A DNA stretch of 64,000 nt, taken from positions 372,001 to 436,000 of the forward strand of contig NZ_CP031376.1 in the NCBI RefSeq assembly GCF_003363775.1, written 5' to 3'. The position numbers and the translations under genes are program-made. How positions within the stretch are numbered: position 1 is the stretch's first letter; the number at the start of each line of letters is the position of its first letter. This document shows positions 47,239 through 59,605 of this stretch, in pieces. The stretch comes from Spiroplasma alleghenense. Lineage in GTDB: Bacteria > Bacillota_I > Bacilli_A > Mycoplasmatales > Mycoplasmataceae. The notes under the pieces were generated by a model that was given only the letters and a program-made list of their open reading frames with translations, ran no database searches and was not told the DNA's origin.

Positions 47239-49215
47239 ATGAAAAAAATTCTTAGTGTATTAGCTTCGGTAAGTTTAATTACTTCTACCGTAGGAACTAC
47301 AGTAGCTTGTTTTGGTAAAACAAGTGATTCTTCTCCACAAATTAATGAATCTCAAAATTTAGATGAGGCAACTTTGGCTGCTGCTCAGCCTTTTATTTTA
47401 GCCGATATAAAAGGATATAACGCAAACTATATTGCAGACCATTTCGTCAGTCAAACAAGAATGAATGATTCTTTGTACTTATTTGATAAAAATACTCCCG
47501 AGCTTAAAGCTGGAAAAACAATTGGAGATTTTTGACAGGGGAAAATGAATCTAAAAGCAAATTTTGAAGATTCATTAGCAAAAACCAATTTAGTTACAAA
47601 TAAAAATTCGGATATAGCACATAATAACCAAGCAATTTTAACTTCTCAAATTGTATTTGAACAAATTGAGCAATCAAATTTATTGAGTATTATTGACGGT
47701 TTTAAAGATTTAATAGGTGGATTTATTACTCCAGAAATCAAGGGTCAAGCCTTGAAAATTTTTAATAAGGAAAATCTTAAGGCCGTTACAGAAGCGTTGG
47801 ATTTCTCTAAATTTGAAGGTGTAACATATCAGACTGCAATTAGTTTTTCTATAAATATGATTGCTAATGCTCTAAGTATGGCTTTAGACTCGGAAAACGA
47901 TTTAGTTGAAACTAACCCAAGCGGGGATTCGATAAAAGATGAAAAAGCAGTAGCATCAGGAGTTGATTTACTGAAGGCAGTTTTTTTGAAGGTAAGCAAA
48001 AAAGAGGAAATGAATTTCCAAGACATTCGCGTTATTTGTCAACTTTTGAAAGCAATGATAATTATAAATAATTATATTGAAATGTTTGATCAGTTCGATA
48101 ATTTTGAAACTAATAATTCAGAAAAATTATGGTCTGATACGAAAAGCAATGAAGAAGTAATTAAGGATATTTTAAAACAAAAATTTTCGTCAGTAAATCT
48201 AAAATTTAGTTTATCGAGATTTGCTTTTAATATTGATAAATATCTAGTTCCTAAAGATAAAAACAAGGATGTTTTTCAACTCCAAAAACTACTAAGTATT
48301 ATTTTTCTGAATAACGATGGATATAAAATTGTAATGAAAGAGTTTTTGAGACCATATATACCTGAGTCATTTTTTGATATAAGCTTAGGTTTTGTAGTAG
48401 CAGTTATTACTGAAATCATTTCTCAAAAACCTATAAAAAAAAGTCTTGAACTAATTTTGGTTTTTCTTTCAGAAGAAATGAAGGCAAAATTTAAAGCGTT
48501 ACTAGAGGACGAAGACTTTTTGCAAAAAACTCTAAATAGTCTATATTATGGTAATGGCTTAGAACTTATTAATAATATCGTTCCCACCGGTCTTAAAGGT
48601 AATCTGGAAACTATTTTATCAAATTTTAAAATTGCGGACTTTTTTGGGTTTTCTGATATAAATAAGTCCATAAATCCAGATATTGAAAATTTGGGAAAAG
48701 ATAAAATAGAAATAAAAAAATTTTATGATTTAGTTAAAAGTCTTGATCAAAGCGATAACCCTGTGTTAAATGGCAAAACCCTTATCGAAGCTGCCTTAGA
48801 AAATCCAAAAGAAATGCTTTCAATACTAGGATTTGATAAAGAAAATTTATCTTTTGATGAAAATTCACCTCTAAAATTTCTTGGAGATATTTTAGAAAAT
48901 AAAGACTTACTTAAATCTATTATTAATTCTCTAAATTTAGTTAACAAAAAGTATGAGGCACTAGATTTGGAACTTGATGCAAGAATAAAAAAAGATCTTT
49001 TGAGAGAAAATTGAAAAATTGAAAGCACCAAGACATTTCATGACTTAAATTACAATATTGTAGGAAAAAAATCAATAATTAAATTTAAAGATGAAAGTTT
49101 TGTAGTTGAAGTTAAAGTTTCAGATGATTACGAAAAAAACATGAATTTTAAATTAAATTTAAATAGTATTTATAAAGGCGAATCAATATATTACTATAAC
49201 GAAAAGCGTAAATAA
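47239..49215 (+). CDS. Large lipoprotein of unknown function
   Basis: 658 aa. Signal peptide with lipobox TVAC, acylated Cys24, then a Ser/Asp/Gln linker and a long helical ectodomain with repeated Leu/Ile/Lys/Asn segments such as FKDLIGGFI and FLGDILENKDLLKSIINSL. Resembles the large surface lipoproteins of spiroplasmas and mycoplasmas in form; no specific family recognised. TGA at 47533 and 49012 are Trp. A single-gene unit between terminators, preceded by a possible operator. Confidence 0.85.
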
Positions 49216-49258: not shown

Positions 49259-49289
49259 AAAACCTTAAAGCAATTGCTTTAAGGTTTTT
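49259..49289 (+). terminator. Terminator of the lipoprotein gene
   Basis: Perfect 13-bp stem AAAACCTTAAAGC (49259-49271) / GCTTTAAGGTTTT (49276-49288), AATT loop, T tract. Confidence 0.92.
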
Positions 49290-49367: not shown

Positions 49368-49377
49368 ATGTTATAAT
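49368..49377 (+). promoter_or_regulatory. Extended -10 promoter of the helicase/AAA/radical-SAM unit
   Basis: TGTTATAAT: a TG one base before TATAAT (49372-49377), the extended -10 pattern that can work without a -35. Followed by AAAGGAGAG as RBS. Confidence 0.55.
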
Positions 49378-49402: not shown

Positions 49403-52400
49403 ATGTCGCAAGAAATAACGCATAATAATAAAGAATTATTTTTTGATTTTTTTCTCTTTAAAAATAAATATAAGGAAAATTTGGATTATCTAGACGATTT
49501 TATCTTAAGTCTTAAGATTAATAATATTAATAAATTGTCAGATCTTGAAGGTTTTTTTAAAAATACAATTTTGAAGCAAACCTTTCTTTGTCTAGTGGAT
49601 GATAAAACTAATACTGTAGGACTAAAAAATTCTAAAAATGGCCAAAAAGAAGTTTTCAACTTCTTGCTTAGATTTGAGTTTTCAGAAGTGTATCAATCAA
49701 GACTCCCTCAGGGATGTTGCTTGGCTTTTGGAGCCGATATTGACCCAAATAGGGCCGTGATCAATGTCAAAAATATTTTTATTACAAAAATGGTCAATAA
49801 TCCACAGGAATTTGAATCAGTTATAAAAAATTGTCGATCAAGAGTAATTGCTTTAAATAACGAAATTTCTAATGAGGAGCTTTTGGAAAGAAATGTTTTA
49901 AATTCTCAAACGGTTTCAAATATTAATAAATTACTTACTAATTTTGAAAATGAAGCTTTGGCATGAAATAATTATCTAGACTACCTTTCAGATATTCTTG
50001 AAGTTAAAAGACGTTTAGCCTTACCTTACCTTAACGGGGAAGTCCAAAATTATATAAAGGTCGAAAACAAAGATGCATTAGGTTTGAAGCAAAAGGCGTT
50101 AGAATTTTTAAACTCTAGCAATTATAAGTACTTTGATTTTATTTATCATTCAGAATTTATAAAAAATAAAATTAATTTTGAAATAATTAACATATTAAGT
50201 TTTGATATTGTTGATAGTTCAGAATTTAAAAATTTTGAAAGAATAAAAAAAATGGAAGACTTGTTTTTGTTGCCAATATCAGCAAATAAAAACGTTCAAA
50301 ATTTGACTCAGTCAAAAAATAATATTAAAAAAATTTTAGATTTTAATAGTTTGGGAGAAAATTCGATAAGAATTGAAAATAAAATTCAACTCGAAGTTTT
50401 ATTAGGTACAAGAAAAAAAGGTTCTCTTATCGATTATTGAAAAGTTAATTCAAATACGATTTTGGGAGCTATTCCTAGTAATTCAAAAGATATAAGTGAC
50501 TTAGATTTGATGGATAAATTGTCAATTTTGGAGGTTTTTTACGAAATATCAGATTATGATTTTGATTTTAAAGTTGATAATGATTTAATTCGCAATTTGG
50601 AAAATGGATATTTGGCATATCTAGGAATTGGTGATGAGACTATAATTAATAGAAGTAGGAAAATAATAAATAGGATAAGAAATGGATGAGTTAAAAACCC
50701 TTATCTTGCTAACTACTTATTTAATACAGATTCAATAGTTGTAAATACCAGTAATCAAGAATTTACTTTAGATAATGTAGAATTCTACTACAATTTAAAT
50801 CACTTGCAAAAAGTTGCTGTGATAAAGGCTTTAAATTCAAAGGATATTTTTTTACTTCAAGGGCCTCCTGGAACTGGTAAAACTCAAGTAATTTCTGAAA
50901 TTGTCTATCAATTGGCAAATAGAAAAAATAAAGTTTTAATTTCATCTCAAAATCACGAGGCAATAAATAACGTAATCGAAAGACTACCTATAGAACCCGA
51001 CCTCTACAAGATGCGTTTGAGCAATGTGTCTTTTCTAGAAAATAAAAGTGTAAATAAGTATGCTCCAGAAAGATTGCTCTTGAACCATTATCAATCAATA
51101 GGGAAGGTCGCCTATGACAATCTATTTCAGAATGGTGCTGATTTAAATCTTGCAAAAAATGAATTAATAAATATTGAAAATTTACTTGTCGGTTTTGAGT
51201 CGATACAAATTAAAAGGCAAGAATTAGATAAAATTTCAGAAAAAATAACAGTTCTTGAGCAACAAATTACAAAATCTTTTGAAGATTTAAATCCAATTTT
51301 TCATAATTTAGAAGACATAGAAGAAGACATTTTTCAAACAGAAAATATGATTAGTAACATTAAAAATGAAAATTATCAAGGTGTAATCTCTAATAATAAA
51401 TTGATAATTGATTCCTACAATAAAGTTTTGAAAAAAAATCTTGAATCACTGTTTGTTAAATTGAAAAAGACTCCAGGAGAAAATATTTTCAAAAACATTA
51501 GTTTTATTTGAAATCACTTTATAACAAACAATGAAAAATTCATCGACTTGCTAAAACTTAAGAATGATTTAAATTCCGCTTCTATTCTTGGTGATTATGA
51601 GAAAGTAATCATAAATAGAAATAAAATTAATGACCTAGAATTTGAAATAGAAAATGATAAAATTATTAGCAATTTAAAGATTATTTTAGATAGGTATGTC
51701 AGAGAGCTTCAAAAAAAACTGGATTCGTTATCATCTAAAAATGATAATAATTTAGAAAAAGCAAAAAAGAATTCGATAAATGTTGAAATAAATAATTTGA
51801 TGATTGATCGAAACAAAATCAGAGGTAGTATTTCTGAAATGTTAGGGCCCGTTCAGGCAGGGGTTGAAAAATTTAATAGAGTCTACAGAGAAGAGTTAGA
51901 TATTTCAGATAAAAACTCAAAGCAAATTATTGAGCAAAAAATTAAAGAGCTTGATAAGAAAATAGATGATTTTGAAAAAAATAAGAATAGGTTAAAACCC
52001 TTATATGAGAAATCTCTTAATTTTCTAAAAAATAATTACGAAATTTCTTGTCAAGATGAAAATAAAATTGAAAAAAATAGATTTAATTTTCAGTTGATAA
52101 ATGATACAAAGAAATATTTGCCAATTATAACACAAAACTTGACGAATATTTATGCAATGACATTAAATTCCCCCAATCAGTTCTTTTTTGATAAGAATAA
52201 ATTAGCAAAAAGTGTAGGACTTGAGAAAATTGATCTAAATAATTTAAATATTGATACTGTAATAATTGATGAGGCAAGTAAAGCGACTCTGCTTGAAATT
52301 ATAATGCCGCTTGTATTTGGACATAGTTTAATTTTAGTTGGAGATTATCGTCAATTGCCGCCATTAATAAAGATAACTCAAAAGGAAGTTGATTTTATTA

Positions 52401-53245
52401 ATTCAGAGACTAATAAAAACTATGATTATGAAGAAATTTTTAATCTTCTAAATGATTCTATTTTTAAGCGATTGATTACTAATGCTAACTCAACAATTAA
52501 AGAAACATTACAGTATCAATACAGAAGTAACCGTCAAATTATGGATGTAGTAAACAATTTTTATGATGGTTATTTAAAAATTGATGAAGAAACAGACTTA
52601 AAAAAATTTCATAATTTAAAAGTTAGTTCATCAATTGGTAACCCAATTATCACTCCTGAAACTTCGACTTACTGAATTGACTCTTCAGTAGATTTAAAAG
52701 GGGAATGAAATCTAGAAAAATCAGAGGAATATTCAACTAGTTTTTACAATAAATTAGAGGCTGAATTAACTATTGAGATGATAAAAAAAATCGATCGCAG
52801 TATTTCTGAAAATATAGAAAGTTTTTCAGAAACTCCTACTTTAGCAATTATTTGCATGTATGGTCTTCAGGTAAATAAAATAAAAAAAATATTTAGTAAA
52901 ATAAGAAACGAAATTAAAAATTTAAAAATAATTATTAGCACCGTTGATGATTTTCAAGGTAAAGAGTGTGATTTTGTTATTGTAAATATGGTTAGAAACC
53001 CAGAAAAAGTTTCTACAAACGGTCAAAAATTTATAAAACAATATGAGAGAATTAATGTAGCACTTTCGAGGGCAAGAAAATTGTTAATTATAGTAGGTTC
53101 ATCACGAACAACTAGGGGTGTATCTGTTAAGATACCTGACATGGATAAACCAAACCAAGTCAGAACTACAAATGTTTACGATGATATAATCTCGTACATA
53201 AAATTTAACAATGGATACAAAACCGCAAAAGATATTTATGAATAG
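49403..53245 (+). CDS. SF1 helicase of the Upf1/DNA2 type
   Basis: 1280 aa. Motif I GPPGTGKT (487-494), motif II DEAS (956-959), motif III LVGDYRQLPPL, a YRS segment of motif IV (LQYQYRSNRQIM), motif V STVDDFQGKECD and motif VI NVALSRARKLLIIVG are all present, so it should be an active ATPase on RNA or DNA, 5'-3' by family. Between motifs I and II lies an unusually long insert (about 450 aa) with coiled coils. The N-terminal 450 residues have no recognised domain. TGA codons (49964, 50438, 50687, 51509, 52673, 52706) are Trp. First gene of a five-gene unit. Confidence 0.9.
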
Positions 53246-53256
53246 GAGTTGGTTTA

Positions 53257-55476
53257 ATGATTTTTGAAAATATAAAATTAAAATACAAAAAAATTTATCA
53301 TCAAGTTCAAATTGAATATTTTCAAACTCGAAAACCTAATTTATTTGAATTCATTTTAATTCAAATAATTTTGGATCATCCTGAAAAGGATAAATCTATA
53401 AGTGAAATATTGAAAAAAGATTTCAATATTTCTGAAACTACAATTTTTAATAAAACTTTTGCAGAATTAAAAAAAATAAAAATAATAAAGGAAAATATAG
53501 CGAACTCTGTAGAATTTATTGTTTCAAAAAGTAATTCAAGTTTTGAATCACCAATAAAAGGTTTTTCAATTGACGAAAGTATTAAGACTGGCTTTATAAA
53601 GGAAAATTATGTAATTTCCCAGGAAACAAAAAATAAGAGATTTTATATTAGCTATGATTTTTTAAATGATGATTTGAATTTTTTAATGTCAAATTCGGAA
53701 AAAGGTTTTAATTCAAGCTATGAATTTGAAATTGAAAGAAAAATAAATAAAAATATTGAAAAAAAATTATTTTTAGAATTACTAAGAAAATTTTTAAATA
53801 AAAATGGAGAGTGATTTTCGCAGGATGATATTTTGAAAAATGTTTTTTTTGATAACGAAAATGTGAATGATTTAAACTTGGTTCGTTTATCAAATGAAAA
53901 TAATTTTGTGATTGCAGAAAAATTAATTAATCTAGAAATTTCATCCGATAGCAGAATTAAAATTTTATCAGAAGAAAAAAGTATTTTGAACTACTTTGAA
54001 GGAAATCCTCAATTAAAAAAAGAATTATATATTTCAGTAATTCAACAATATCAAAAAAAGGTTCGTGAAATATTTGAACCTAAAAGAGGGGAAATTGATT
54101 TTGAAATATTTGATTCAAAAATATTAAATTATGAAAATTTACCGGTATATGATGCCAGCGAAATTTTATTGATAAATAATGATGATTATTTTGCAGAAGA
54201 TAAAGTTTTGAATTTCAAAAAAATTACAAGAAACGTAAAGTATATTATAATTTATAATTCTAAGGCGAATAATTCATTTCAAGAAGTTAAAGATGGTAAA
54301 ATGATTTTTTATCTAAATCAATTGAGCGACTATACACTAAATAATTCAACTATTTCTTTTTTAAATTTTGAAAGTGGATTTACGAACTTTGCTTTTATAG
54401 AATCTGATTTAGTTGATTTAGATATAAAAGTGCCTTTTTTTCAAAAAATTTTAAACTCCGAATCAGATCAAAAGAATATGCTGTCAAATATTTCAGTTGG
54501 TCTTTCGAGAACTTTTTCGAAGTGCTTGGATATCAAGGAATATGGTCGATCAGTAAATCTATTTAAAATACTTGAGACACTAAACCAATTAGACATTGCT
54601 CTTGAAGTGATTCGAGAAAAGTTGCAAGAAAATATTTTAGAGGGTAGTATTTTTACCGAATTTGGTAAAATTTTAAAGCATTCAGTTTCTGAAAAAACAT
54701 TTCAAAAATATGAAGAAATTTTAATAAAAATACTTTTTGATATTTGTAATTCAAAAAACTATTTGAATTTCCCAAGAATAATAAGTAATTATAAAATTAT
54801 TAACAGCAATCTTTTCAAAAAATATTTGCTCGAAACTTCATGCGTTTTTGATATTGAAAAATTAATTCAAATCGATTTAGTTTTACAAGAAATGGATATA
54901 GATTTGTGAAAATTTAATATTTTTGGTTCCTTAAAAGTTTTTAGTGAATATTTTTTTGAAAATAAAAGATTGGAAATTACAAAACATCATCAAGTAAAAT
55001 CGAATATTTTTCAAAGTCATTACGAGTTTTTTAAAGATTTTTTAATAATGAATTCATATTTCTATAAAAAGCAATACGATGAGGCTGCTCAAATATATTT
55101 AAATGTTTTCTCTAATATGAAATCTATTTTCAAAAATTTTAAAAATATAAAATATGACTTCGAGAGTTACTTTATTTTAATTTCCAATTTAATGTCAAGT
55201 TATTATAGGGATTATGATTTATATTTAGAATTGAAAATTTCTGCCAATATTAAACTTCCGATTTGAAAAATTAGATACGATAGTATTCAAAAATATAACG
55301 ATATAAGCAAAAGATTAAATGCAAATATGCCAACGGAATTTCAAAATGCGCCACTTGAGTTTAAAGTTGCCTATTTATGTGAATTTAAAGGTGAAAAAAG
55401 TTTTGTTGAACAATTATTAGATAAAAATACAAAAAATATTGATGATATTATTTTGGATATTTATTCGAGAAAGTAA
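53257..55476 (+). CDS. Large protein of unknown function in the helicase/AAA unit
   Basis: 739 aa, rich in Lys, Asn, Ile and Phe. Residues about 25-95 (SISEILKKDFNISETTIFNK and following) look like a winged helix-turn-helix. The middle (about 250-400) has alternating strands, for example NVKYIIIYNSKANN. The last 330 residues are helical and may be a TPR/HEAT-like solenoid. No signal peptide or membrane segment. No family recognised and no catalytic motif seen. It starts 11 nt after the helicase with AGGAG and ends 12 nt before the coiled-coil gene. Confidence 0.82.
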
Positions 55477-55488
55477 AGGGGTGAAATA

Positions 55489-56580
55489 ATGAGTAAATCA
55501 GCAAAAGAAGTATTATTGGATTATCAAAAAAAGGTTAAACATATCTCAGATGATATCAATTTTTTAATCAATTCAATAAAATTAATCATAGCTTCTTGTG
55601 AAAAAATTGACAATTCAAATATTTATAAAGAGGAATTGAATAATTTACTAAAAAAATTAACTGAAAAGCAATACGATTTGAAAACAAACGCTTTAGACAA
55701 GGCAATATCAAAAGATGTTCACACAGCAACCGAAACTTTAAAAGAAATCAACGCCTACTTGAATCGACAAGTTGATGGAGTAGCTGAGATAAAGCAAATG
55801 GCATTGGCTATAAAAGAAAAGGTAATCAAGGCCGAACTCGAACAAATTAAAACAAATTTGAAAAATAACAGTTTTTCTTCATTTTCTCAAAAAATTGAAA
55901 ATATATTATCAAACATTACCGAAGCTGATAGTCATAATTACTTGAAAGACTTTATAGATAAAAATCAAAACAAATTAATTAACACCAATCAAGATAATTT
56001 GCAAGAATATCTTTTAGATGAATTAGCAAAATTTAATTCAGATCCAAAAAATATTTTTGAAAAAGTTGTAAATTCCCAAATTGAACAATTTAAAACAGAA
56101 CCTGATTTATTGTCTATAATAAATGAATCTAAATTAAAAATTTCTAAAGAAATTAGTCAAGAAAATTTATCAAGAAATATTAATAGCTTTTTGCAAGAAA
56201 CAGAGCACAAAATTGCATCTGAGGTTACTAGGAAAGAAGTTGTTATTAAAATAATAAAAGCAATAAGAGATGTTGGTTTTGTGGTTAACAAAGAAGACGT
56301 AATTAGAGCTAAAATGGGTTCAAAAGTCATGATTTTAGCACAAAAACCGACCGGAGAGACGGCTCAATTTGCTGTTGATTTGGATGGTAGCTATATTTAC
56401 AATTTTGAGGGTTATGAAGGCAAAGAACACGACTATGATTCTGATGACTTCATTCAAAAATTGCGAGAATTCGGATTAGCTACAAGTGAAGAATTTGATA
56501 AAGTTTATCGTCAACCAAGTTTTGTTGCTAAAAAAAGTCAAAGTCAGACTAACATTAATAAAAAGAAAAAATCAAACTAA
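55489..56580 (+). CDS. Coiled-coil protein with a conserved-looking C-terminal domain
   Basis: 363 aa. Residues 1-240 are helical coiled coils. Residues about 245-340 form a compact alpha/beta piece: KAIRDVGFVVNKEDVIRAKM, then VMILAQKPTGETAQFAVDLD, then YIYNFEGYEGKEHDYDSDDF. The GYEG pattern recalls DUF2997-like proteins encoded near AAA ATPases and radical-SAM enzymes in other bacteria; that is a weak resemblance by eye. A Lys/Ser-rich tail ends the protein. No Trp at all. Confidence 0.8.
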   Translation: MSKSAKEVLLDYQKKVKHISDDINFLINSIKLIIASCEKIDNSNIYKEELNNLLKKLTEKQYDLKTNALDKAISKDVHTATETLKEINAYLNRQVDGVAEIKQMALAIKEKVIKAELEQIKTNLKNNSFSSFSQKIENILSNITEADSHNYLKDFIDKNQNKLINTNQDNLQEYLLDELAKFNSDPKNIFEKVVNSQIEQFKTEPDLLSIINESKLKISKEISQENLSRNINSFLQETEHKIASEVTRKEVVIKIIKAIRDVGFVVNKEDVIRAKMGSKVMILAQKPTGETAQFAVDLDGSYIYNFEGYEGKEHDYDSDDFIQKLREFGLATSEEFDKVYRQPSFVAKKSQSQTNINKKKKSN

Positions 56581-56589
56581 GGAGATCTT

Positions 56590-58395
56590 ATGAGTACAAG
56601 AAACCAATTCATACAACTAGAAAATATTTTGGGTATCAAAAAAATAATTATTATTGAGGGAAATGTTGATGACATATATCTTGATAATAATAACTTTGTA
56701 AACATTCACAAAAAAATAAGATCAATTTTAGAATCAAAAAAAATTGACAGTAAAATATTTTGAGATAAAATTGATGGTCTAAAGGGTCAGGGGATAAAGG
56801 ATTTGATTTTAATGCCTGAAAAAGAAAAGATAGAAGGAGAATCCTATGATGAAATTGATGAATTGTTTTCTAATAAGCCAGAAAACGACCAAAAGGACCC
56901 TAATTTTAAAAAACCAGAGAATTTCTTTGCATTAGTAAGAAGAAATTTAAATCGAGATGATGATAAAAAAATAGTCTTTGTCTTAGACTATTCTGATTTC
57001 ATTTTTAATGATACACAGCTCCTTGAAGAAGATCGTAATAACTTAATTAGTTTGAGTAAAACTTTAAAGGAAAACCAATTCAGAATTTCGCGAGTTTCAA
57101 AAACAGAATCTTCACTAATTTTGATTACCAAACAATTATCTCAGCTACCACCAAGACTATATTTGAACAATCCAGAAGTAACCACTCTCACATTGCCAAA
57201 ACCAAATCGTGATGAAAGAAAAAGTTTTATTGCTTCTATCAAAAATCAAATTCAAGTAACAGATTCTGATGATAAAAACTTTTTAGAGAATTTAACCGAC
57301 ACCTTTGAGGGCTGAACTCTCAAGGAAGTTTTGCAATTCGCAAAATTCACAAATAATAATGAAATGCTATCATTTGAAAAATCTCTTAATAAATACAAAT
57401 ATGGAGATAAAGATTCACCATGAGAAGACTTGAATTATGAAAAGTTATCAAATTTAAAAAATGAATTAAAATCAAGGGTTATTGGCCAAGATTCAGCGAT
57501 TGATAAGGTGGCAAATGTAATATATAAAGCTTACACCGGTCTTTCTGGAGTTGCTTACTCAGCTAAAAAAACAAAGCCAAAGGGAACTCTTTTTTTTGTT
57601 GGCCCTACTGGAGTTGGTAAAACTGAGCTAGCAAAAGCAATTGCTAAATTTGTTTTTAATGATGAAGCTAATCTAATAAGATTTGATATGTCCGAATATT
57701 CTCAATCAAATAGCGATCAAAAACTAATAGGAGCTCCACCGGGTTATGTAGGTTTTGAAGGGGGCGGGCAGTTAACAAATGCAGTTAAACAAAAACCATT
57801 TTCAGTTATTTTATTCGACGAAATTGAAAAGGCGGATTCTAGTATTTTTGATAAGTTTTTACAAATCTTAGAAGATGGTCGTTTAACAGATAACACTGGC
57901 CAAACTGTTAGTTTTACAGATTCGATAATTATTTTTACATCAAACATTGGTTCTGCCCATGTAACTGCTTCTAGCAGTCCTGAAGTTGTTTCAAAGCAGT
58001 TTATGAAATTTGTAGAGGATTTCTTTACCCAGGATTTGGGAAGACCTGAACTATTGGGTCGATTCGGAAATAACATAATACCTTTTAATTTCATTACCGA
58101 TGAGAAAATAAAATCAAAAATTATCAGACAGAAATTAAAACCGATTCAAATGGCTGTTTATGAGAAATTTCATATTCAAGTCCATGTTGATATCACAGAT
58201 CAACTAATTGCAATTATTCTTAAAGAAGCAAACGAACAACGTGGGGGAAGGGATATCCTAAACGCCTTGGAAAAACAATTCGTAGATCCGCTCTCATTAT
58301 TTATTTTTGAAAACCAAAGTACTTTAAAACCGGGAACTAAAATTAACGCAGTTATAAACCAAAATGAAATAAATTTTGTTGTTAAAGTTGGCTAA
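56590..58395 (+). CDS. ClpB-like AAA+ protein with a degenerate first AAA domain
   Basis: 601 aa. Residues 1-270 look like an AAA module with no Walker A; only a Walker B-like IVFVLDYSDF and a sensor-like SLILITKQL remain. Residues 280-560 are a Clp/Hsp100 D2-type module: VIGQDSAIDKVA, Walker A GPTGVGKT (338-345), IGAPPGYVGFEGGG pore loop, Walker B ILFDEIEKAD with Asp410-Glu411, sensor FTSNIG, arginine-finger region LGRPELLGRF and sensor 2 GGRD. It lacks the ClpB N-domain and middle domain and the ClpP-binding loop. Starts 9 nt after the previous gene with AAGGAG. Confidence 0.9.
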
Positions 58396-58993
58396 TTTAA
58401 ATATAAATAATTTTGTTTCCCAAACTTTGATCGAAGGACCAGGTAAAAGATTTGCGGTTTGATTCCAAGGATGTTCAATTGGGTGTAGAAATTGCAGCAA
58501 TCAAGAAATGTTAAGTTTTGAGAAGAGAATGTTTTTGCCAGTATCTTTATTAATTGAAAAAATTAAGGAATCAAAAGAAAAATTTGGTATTTTGGGTCTC
58601 ACTATTCTTGGGGGTGAGCCCTTTTTGCAACCCGATGGGTTACTAGAATTAGTAGAAGAAACTAAAAAGTTAGGACTAAATATCATAATCTTTTCAGGAT
58701 TTCTATATGAAAATTTAGAAAAACAATTTTTTGAAATTTTGGCCCATATTGATTTGCTAATTGATGGGCCATTTATATCCTCAAAACTGGATAAAAATCG
58801 TCGCCTAATTGGTAGTACTAATCAAAGAATAATAAAAATTAGTGATTGTTTTGAAAATGAAGACTATTTTGAAAAACCTGTTTGAGAAGTTGATATTCAT
58901 ATCAATAATTCAATTGCAACAGTTAACGGGGATGGATCAATTTTGGATGATGCAGACGGAAAGAATATATTCAATATAGAAAAAAACAAATAG
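58388..58993 (+). CDS. Small radical-SAM protein (activase-like)
   Basis: 201 aa with the CxxxCxxC cluster motif Cys29-Cys33-Cys36 (GCSIGCRNC), GEP-type motif LGGEPFLQP for SAM, and LLIDGPF. The GPGKRFAVWFQGC lead-in is shared by NrdG-like activases. No nrdD or pflB partner lies in the window, so the target is unknown and is most simply a protein of the same unit. Start is probably TTG 58388, inside the end of the AAA gene with no clear Shine-Dalgarno (coupled). The last residue block is charged. TGA at 58460 and 58883 are Trp. Confidence 0.85.
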
Positions 58994-59000
58994 TATGCAA

Positions 59001-59037
59001 TAAAATACCACTTTTTTACAAAAAGAGTGGTATTTTT
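59001..59037 (+). terminator. Terminator of the five-gene unit
   Basis: Stem AAAATACCACT (59001-59011) / AGTGGTATTTT (59025-59035), extended by A-T pairs inside; T tract. Confidence 0.88.
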
Positions 59038-59116
59038 TAAATTAAGAAATATAATATTTTTAGATTTTAGATTACAAACCATATTAAATTAAATAAACAG
59101 AGGAGAAGGTGTCACC

Positions 59117-59605
59117 ATAAAACACAAGATAAAGATTTTGGCTCCGATTGATGGATTTATTACAAATCAATCTTTTGAACTTATTATGAATTTAGACAAA
59201 AAAATTGCAATTATTAGAATTCGTCCTGATTCAGAAACTATTTATCCACCAATTCAAGAATCAAAACTAAACTATTATCCAGAAAAACAGAAAATATCAT
59301 TCACTGCTTTACGTAGTTTAGCTGAAATTAACTTATTAACAAATAAAACAAACTGTGATTTAATCGTAAGTCACAAATTTGAAGAAATTATCACAAACTT
59401 TCAACAAATTGCAAAAATTGATTTAAATTACTTCACCAAAAATGAGGGTACAGTTGATTTAGAGTTTATAATGAATCCAAAATGAGATTTAACTCTCAAA
59501 AAATCAAACCGAATTGTCGCTCATGGCGATTTAATTGCGGAATGATCTTATGAATCTCCGACAAAAAAAGAGCGTTCAGATTCGCAAAAATACGATTTTG
59601 ACTAA
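59117..59605 (+). CDS. EIIA-Glc-like protein with apparent AUA start
   Basis: 162 aa if started at ATA 59117. The opening KIKILAPIDGFI and the late VAHGDLIAEW match the start and end of the glucose-type EIIA fold, but the phospho-His motif HIG is not preserved, so it may not carry phosphate. No ATG, GTG or TTG lies in frame before TTG 59138, and GAGGAGAAGG sits about 10 nt upstream of ATA, so AUA is the likely start. TGA at 59483 and 59540 are Trp. It is a single gene between a terminator and the tRNA promoter. Confidence 0.68.

Follow-up and report, generated by a model that had tools for sequence, protein, structure and literature searches.

Mokosh, which has been reported to degrade viral transcripts (PMC11291487), is a described defence system to which the five-gene operon analysed here, located in a 64,000-nucleotide window of the Spiroplasma alleghenense genome, bears a likeness in plan. 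Both have an MkoA-like SF1 helicase (gene 1 of the operon) adjacent to a predicted nuclease; they differ in that a HEPN, PIN or NYN domain replaces the PLD nuclease of Mokosh, and in that five genes, adding gene 3, a ClpB-type AAA+ protein and a radical SAM protein, stand where Mokosh has one or two. An MkoB-like N-terminus is weakly detected in some gene 2 proteins (1e-5 to 4e-4 overall), namely in 4 of 43 members and in plasmid copies (1.1e-5 and 1.4e-4), with no MkoB match in the gene 2 product of the window (P0002). The PLD motif HxKxxxxD is absent from P0002, and Pfam scans of P0002 and its relatives found no PLD domain. As the PLD nuclease is missing and the composition is different, we reject the operon as Mokosh proper and class it as a Mokosh-like variant, i.e. 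a putative helicase-RNase system with swappable RNases and extra parts.

A second resemblance to described systems concerns gene 4, whose ClpB-like core matches the PADLOC models of Dodola DolB (1.9e-23) and PDC-M37B (1.3e-40), a generic AAA+ similarity; the operon differs from both systems in that no partner-gene model matched. Dodola was rejected on DolA, which is unmatched among the six proteins scanned, and for the PDC-M37 candidate the M37B models alone matched, in the window and in the plasmid copies. The earlier note had allowed that the unit might correspond gene by gene to a described system; no such match was found in PADLOC 2023 or NCBIfam 2026 (newer catalogues may contain the set), and no description of the five-gene set was found in the literature searched, which included few subscription papers. 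We read the operon as a predicted RNA-targeting machine of defence type whose plan is akin to that of Mokosh, and assign this reading a probability of about 0.5.

Organization of the operon in the window

The five genes occupy positions 49403-58993 on the plus strand, and each is uninterrupted over its full length when read with genetic code 4; code 11 breaks genes 1, 2, 4 and 5, and gene 3 alone survives. The intergenic distances, in order from gene 1 to gene 5, are 11, 12, 9 and −8 nt. Read directly from the sequence, TGTTATAAT (49369-49377, plus strand) is an extended −10 promoter element by consensus match only, and AAGGAG lies upstream of the ATG of gene 1. A terminator-like hairpin (49259-49288, plus strand; −17.1 kcal/mol, z −5.0) ends the preceding lipoprotein gene, and a terminator hairpin followed by T's (about 59002-59036, plus strand; −15.7 kcal/mol, z −5.7) ends the operon. 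Rereading under code 4 and folding of the hairpins confirm the arrangement described in the earlier note: five tightly spaced genes on one strand, an extended −10 promoter, and terminators. The isolation from housekeeping neighbours that it also described is correct as to the terminators and incorrect as to the adjacent upstream gene (47239-49215), which encodes a fast-evolving lipoprotein (37% identity in the nearest relative vs. 98% for L13 and S9), with the housekeeping genes rplM-rpsI beyond. Past the operon terminator lies a sixth ORF (59104-59605), in which GAGGAGAAGG is present and an ATG start is absent; this ORF is confined to the three genomes of the genus and resembles a PTS EIIA domain by eye.

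Distribution across phyla and descent in spiroplasmas

Species genomes were scanned for the N-terminal part of gene 4, which yielded 80 loci from many phyla. Using profiles grown from the spiroplasma proteins, we found all five genes in the identical order in 61 of the 80, and therefore dismiss a chance arrangement; most of the remaining 19 loci are truncated by contig ends. The complete loci span nine or more phyla and include Bacillota, Mycoplasmatota, Bacteroidota, Campylobacterota and Spirochaetota, as well as Planctomycetota, Actinomycetota, Pseudomonadota, Synergistota and Fibrobacterota. An archaeal MAG (L165) carries genes 1, 3, 4 and 5, with an unmatched 835-aa ORF at the position of gene 2. 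The set is also present on five proteobacterial plasmids (Acinetobacter, Polaromonas, Moellerella, Photobacterium and Leisingera), two of which are typed as conjugative; the existing plasmid annotations read, in order, AAA protein, PIN protein, hypothetical protein, AAA ATPase and 4Fe-4S protein. The AAA+ gene of the Moellerella plasmid was unmatched in E. coli genomes.

In the gene 4 tree, the spiroplasma copies form one group (support 100), next to a HEPN-type clade with members from Bacillota, Bacteroidota, Campylobacterota, Planctomycetota and Mycoplasmatota; Helicobacteraceae stand beside Prevotellaceae, and Planctomycetota fall among Lachnospiraceae. The simplest reading outside the mollicutes is horizontal transfer, with the reservation that many of the copies are MAGs and that in several of the transfer cases these may be misbinned. 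Proteins in the non-mollicute flanks match AbiD, AbiE, type IV restriction and type I methyltransferase (MTase_I), and also CARF regulators, Csx1, SIR2 and resolvases; this census is qualitative because it had no control set.

Within the spiroplasmas the operon behaves as an inherited unit. Genes 3, 4 and 5 are syntenic across related genomes, and over wider stretches the order 1-2-3-4-5 is seen in every copy retrieved, apart from one contig fragment and two interrupted copies. Of 60 genomes in the family, 39 have a gene 4 orthologue, as do 39 of the 40 that belong to six genera; the gene is missing from the sister genera with small genomes and from G267, a spiroplasma. The window genus, the S. 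citri group and a third genus all have the operon downstream of rplM-rpsI; another large genus has it after leuS, a gene found downstream of the operon in the window genus. These positions fit vertical inheritance from a single ancestral location. Purifying selection acts on all five genes (dN/dS of 0.03-0.23 across three informative pairs); in most pairs gene 2 evolves fastest, and genes 4 and 5 slowest. The earlier note had pointed to the operon as a heavy investment for a minimal genome: the size of about 9.6 kb stands, and the argument becomes less telling since nearly every spiroplasma has the operon and purifying selection acts on it. Two loci (L065 and L066) contain extra ORFs that interrupt the operon, and in S. 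poulsonii (L144) genes 4 and 5 alone are adjacent.

The proposal that the five genes form one machine is strongly supported by these data: the same genes occur in the same order in distant phyla and on plasmids, and are jointly inherited in spiroplasmas. The scatter of homologues that the earlier note named as evidence against a single unit was not found; the set stays together.

Predicted products of the five genes

Gene 1 (P0001; 49403-53245, plus strand; 1280 aa) is, by sequence, a predicted UPF1/MkoA-like SF1 helicase: it matches Pfam AAA_12 (2.1e-36) and AAA_11 (2.8e-27) and PADLOC MkoA (4.8e-94), its PDB matches are SEN1, SMUBP-2, DNA2 and UPF1, and helicase motifs I, II, III, V and VI are all found. 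It shares the SF1 core and its motifs with UPF1, Sen1 and SMUBP-2, and differs from them in being bacterial, in a long insert and in its operonic partners.

Gene 2 (P0002; 53257-55476, plus strand; 739 aa) had been regarded as an orphan, a view that no longer holds: it belongs to a family with an interchangeable C-terminal RNase (HEPN, PIN or NYN), its relatives sharing the N-terminal half of P0002 and differing in their C-termini. Profile comparison by hhalign of spiroplasma gene 2 gives 98.5% (E 2.8e-15) against the PIN-type family, over the N-terminal columns 1-552, and 97.3% (E 1.9e-11) against the HEPN-type family. In HEPN-type members, the Bacillota-type relatives, the RNxxxH motif is present in 38/38, with R, R, N and H invariant, and Pfam reports DUF4145 in 16/20 and HEPN_RiboL-PSP in 7/20; in a second group PIN_4 is found in 16/24 and a NYN RNase in one. 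Residues 618-725 of a model of one HEPN-type protein (pLDDT 88.9) match 7BXO, from a toxin-antitoxin system, over 107 residues (Z 9.4, rmsd 3.6); 7BXO, which we take to be a HEPN toxin pair, ranks first among the structural matches, with RnlA further down. A HEPN-domain profile had zero matches among PDB sequences. Gene 2 of the relatives thus carries the catalytic motif and fold of HEPN/PIN toxin-type RNases and differs from these in joining them to a large scaffold within a five-gene set; judging from sequence, it is a predicted fast-evolving scaffold with a swappable terminal RNase domain (HEPN, PIN or NYN).

The counterpart of this domain was not found in P0002. RNxxxH occurs in 0/21 spiroplasma copies, a Pfam scan of P0002 found no PIN, HEPN or any other convincing family, and a restricted comparison of profiles revealed no similarity between the spiroplasma C-terminus and either HEPN or PIN. 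The C-terminal part of P0002 is helical and poorly modelled (AF2 model, overall pLDDT 66); Foldseek searches of the PDB with two gene 2 models returned nothing below E 0.001, and a closer structural look at P0002 gave helical-repeat matches only, e.g. condensin Ycg1 (Z 11.4, 139 residues), a likeness that may reflect a common helical arrangement. As the spiroplasma and HEPN-type clades are sisters, we infer that the RNase domain of P0002 was likely lost or altered past recognition, and the window copy, lacking a recognizable HEPN or PIN domain, may therefore not cut RNA. In the second, PIN-bearing group, four Treponema copies of gene 2 also stop short of the RNase domain.

Gene 3 (55489-56580, plus strand; 363 aa) combines a divergent N-terminus with a C-terminal domain that is conserved and bears a Y-x-G motif, as seen in alignments, and comparisons within its family give 99.1-99.6% by hhalign. 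Pfam finds no convincing family in the window copy; weak matches to DUF2997 in 3/53 members (best 6e-4) suggest that the C-terminal domain is possibly DUF2997-like. Two ideas about gene 3 as a substrate of the radical SAM protein were rejected. The glycine of Y-x-G is replaced in several copies (e.g. L034, L079 and L086), and no Gly_radical domain exists anywhere in the window genome; a conserved Cys is missing in spiroplasma copies that retain gene 5 and is found in Metamycoplasma-type copies that lack it.

Gene 4 (56590-58395, plus strand; 601 aa) consists of an N-terminal region without Walker A followed by a single ClpB-D2-type AAA+ domain (Pfam AAA_2, 9.4e-51) with Walker A, Walker B, a GYVG pore loop and a sensor-2 GGRD. 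The full-length two-domain ClpB model scores 268.7 bits vs. a cut-off of 1232.1, with the match confined to D2, and gene 4 is therefore rejected as a ClpB chaperone; it is a predicted one-domain Hsp100-type AAA+ unfoldase with a threading pore loop. Phage matches to gene 4, among those listed, are confined to its ClpB part.

Gene 5 (58388-58993, plus strand) starts with TTG, overlaps gene 4 by 8 nt and encodes an NrdG-like radical SAM protein (Fer4_12, 9e-32) with conserved CxxxCxxC and GGEP. It scores 94.8 bits vs. a cut-off of 126.1 for the NrdG equivalog and 29.8 bits vs. 180 for that of prokaryotic viperin; viperin was rejected on this score, and NrdG on the sub-cut-off score and on the location of NrdD elsewhere, beside another weak radical SAM match. 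Among PDB entries, gene 5 matches pyruvate formate-lyase activating enzyme best. Gene 5 resembles NrdG and this activase in being a small radical SAM protein with CxxxCxxC, and differs from them in that its operon contains no glycyl-radical partner and in its sub-cut-off NrdG score. Several radical SAM loci are present in the window genome, gene 5 being one of them; the anaerobic ribonucleotide reductase NrdD (G000:C1:734329-736669), unusual in a mollicute, adjoins another, weak match.

A central role for the radical SAM enzyme is contradicted by related sets in Metamycoplasmataceae-type genomes, where genes 1-4 occur in order and gene 5 is missing (nine loci read, one of them disrupted; gene 2 was identified mainly from place and size, and gene 3 from hhalign at ~91%). 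Radical SAM and SufBD were found in 0/13 Metamycoplasmataceae genomes searched. As the four-gene sets persist in genomes without radical SAM or SufBD, gene 5 is an accessory part that some lineages dispense with. SufBD is present in 38/39 gene-4-bearing genomes of the family, a co-occurrence that is not independent evidence because Suf tracks one clade.

Predicted function and alternative readings

The reading of the operon as an RNA-targeting defence machine draws on its persistence as a fixed module across phyla, its carriage on plasmids, the RNase domains of gene 2, the MkoA likeness of gene 1, the MkoB-like N-terminus of some gene 2 proteins, the defence genes in the flanks, the transfer-like gene 4 tree and the fast evolution of gene 2. 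Against it stand the absence of a recognizable HEPN or PIN domain in P0002 and a similarity to MkoB that is weak in relatives and nil in P0002; vertical inheritance from an ancestral site in 39/40 genomes, which resembles a core function more than mobile defence; and the uncontrolled flank census, the several transfer cases that are possibly misbinned MAGs, and dN/dS values that indicate purifying selection only. In such a machine, the helicase would engage foreign or aberrant RNA, or an RNA-DNA hybrid, and hand the target to gene 2, whose RNase domain would cut it; gene 3 could be the adaptor that links gene 2 to the AAA+ ring, which would remodel or reset the complex, or remove proteins from the target; and the radical SAM protein might tune one component through a modification. 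We suggest, tentatively, that the set is an undescribed and widespread immune system in which a UPF1-like helicase and exchangeable HEPN/PIN/NYN RNases work with an Hsp100-type unfoldase and a radical SAM regulator, and which includes an RNase-less spiroplasma branch. That branch could, for example, strip proteins off foreign RNA, or use an unrecognized effector.

The alternative that survives best, although we consider it rather unlikely, is an endogenous machine for RNA surveillance or stress, comparable in bacteria to UPF1 acting with PIN-type nucleases: stalled ribonucleoprotein complexes would be cleared by the helicase and the unfoldase, and the RNA degraded by gene 2. A UPF1/Sen1-like helicase, an unfoldase suited to clearing protein-RNA complexes, and the near-universal, vertical and selectively constrained operon of spiroplasmas are all expected of such a machine; a housekeeping decay system would not usually show plasmid carriage, patchy distribution with apparent transfer outside the mollicutes, neighbouring defence genes and swapping of RNase domains, and the operon is missing from G267 and the small-genome sister genera. 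It is improbable that the operon is a module for the maintenance of mobile elements, for instance a large toxin-antitoxin-like set in which the RNase of gene 2 would be the toxin: toxins commonly have HEPN and PIN domains, the closest structural match of gene 2 comes from a toxin-antitoxin pair, and the set travels on plasmids, but five genes and 9.6 kb are large for addiction, and the operon persists with the RNase-less gene 2 of Treponema and with spiroplasma P0002.

Very little speaks for placing the radical SAM protein at the centre, as the activating enzyme of a protein that carries a glycyl radical or some other modification, the helicase and AAA+ protein serving as supports: the activase as top PDB match and the frequency of SufBD (38/39) are set against the four-gene sets that lack radical SAM and SufBD, the missing Gly_radical domain, an NrdD that adjoins a radical SAM match of its own, and the covariation of Suf with clade. 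That the spiroplasma copy is a degenerate, functionless remnant is hardly credible, since the missing RNase domain of P0002, the interrupted L065 and L066 and the reduced S. poulsonii locus are outweighed by purifying selection on all five genes and an intact operon in nearly all genomes.

These results turn hypothetical proteins of many phyla into one testable system, in which the pairing of an unfoldase and a radical SAM protein with a helicase and an RNase would give RNA-targeting immunity an unusual layer of control. Copies in which the RNase is exchanged or missing, or which lack the radical SAM protein, are built-in tests of each part, and for the spiroplasmas this concerns a conserved, near-universal 9.6-kb operon of no assigned function.

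Three further arrangements were observed. On an Aristaeella plasmid (L177), the radical SAM and AAA+ pair is accompanied by two kinases and by FHA, PP2C and DUF4011 proteins, and this may be a cousin under kinase control. Loci L071 and L086 (genomes G058 and G068 of the family) are second, Metamycoplasma-type four-gene copies that accompany the ancestral operon. In part of the S. citri group (L038, L039, L068, L069, L142 and L148), the ORF of gene 5 continues in-frame into a thiol peroxidase-like downstream ORF, giving a fusion of 368 aa in total; the two ORFs are separate in L037.
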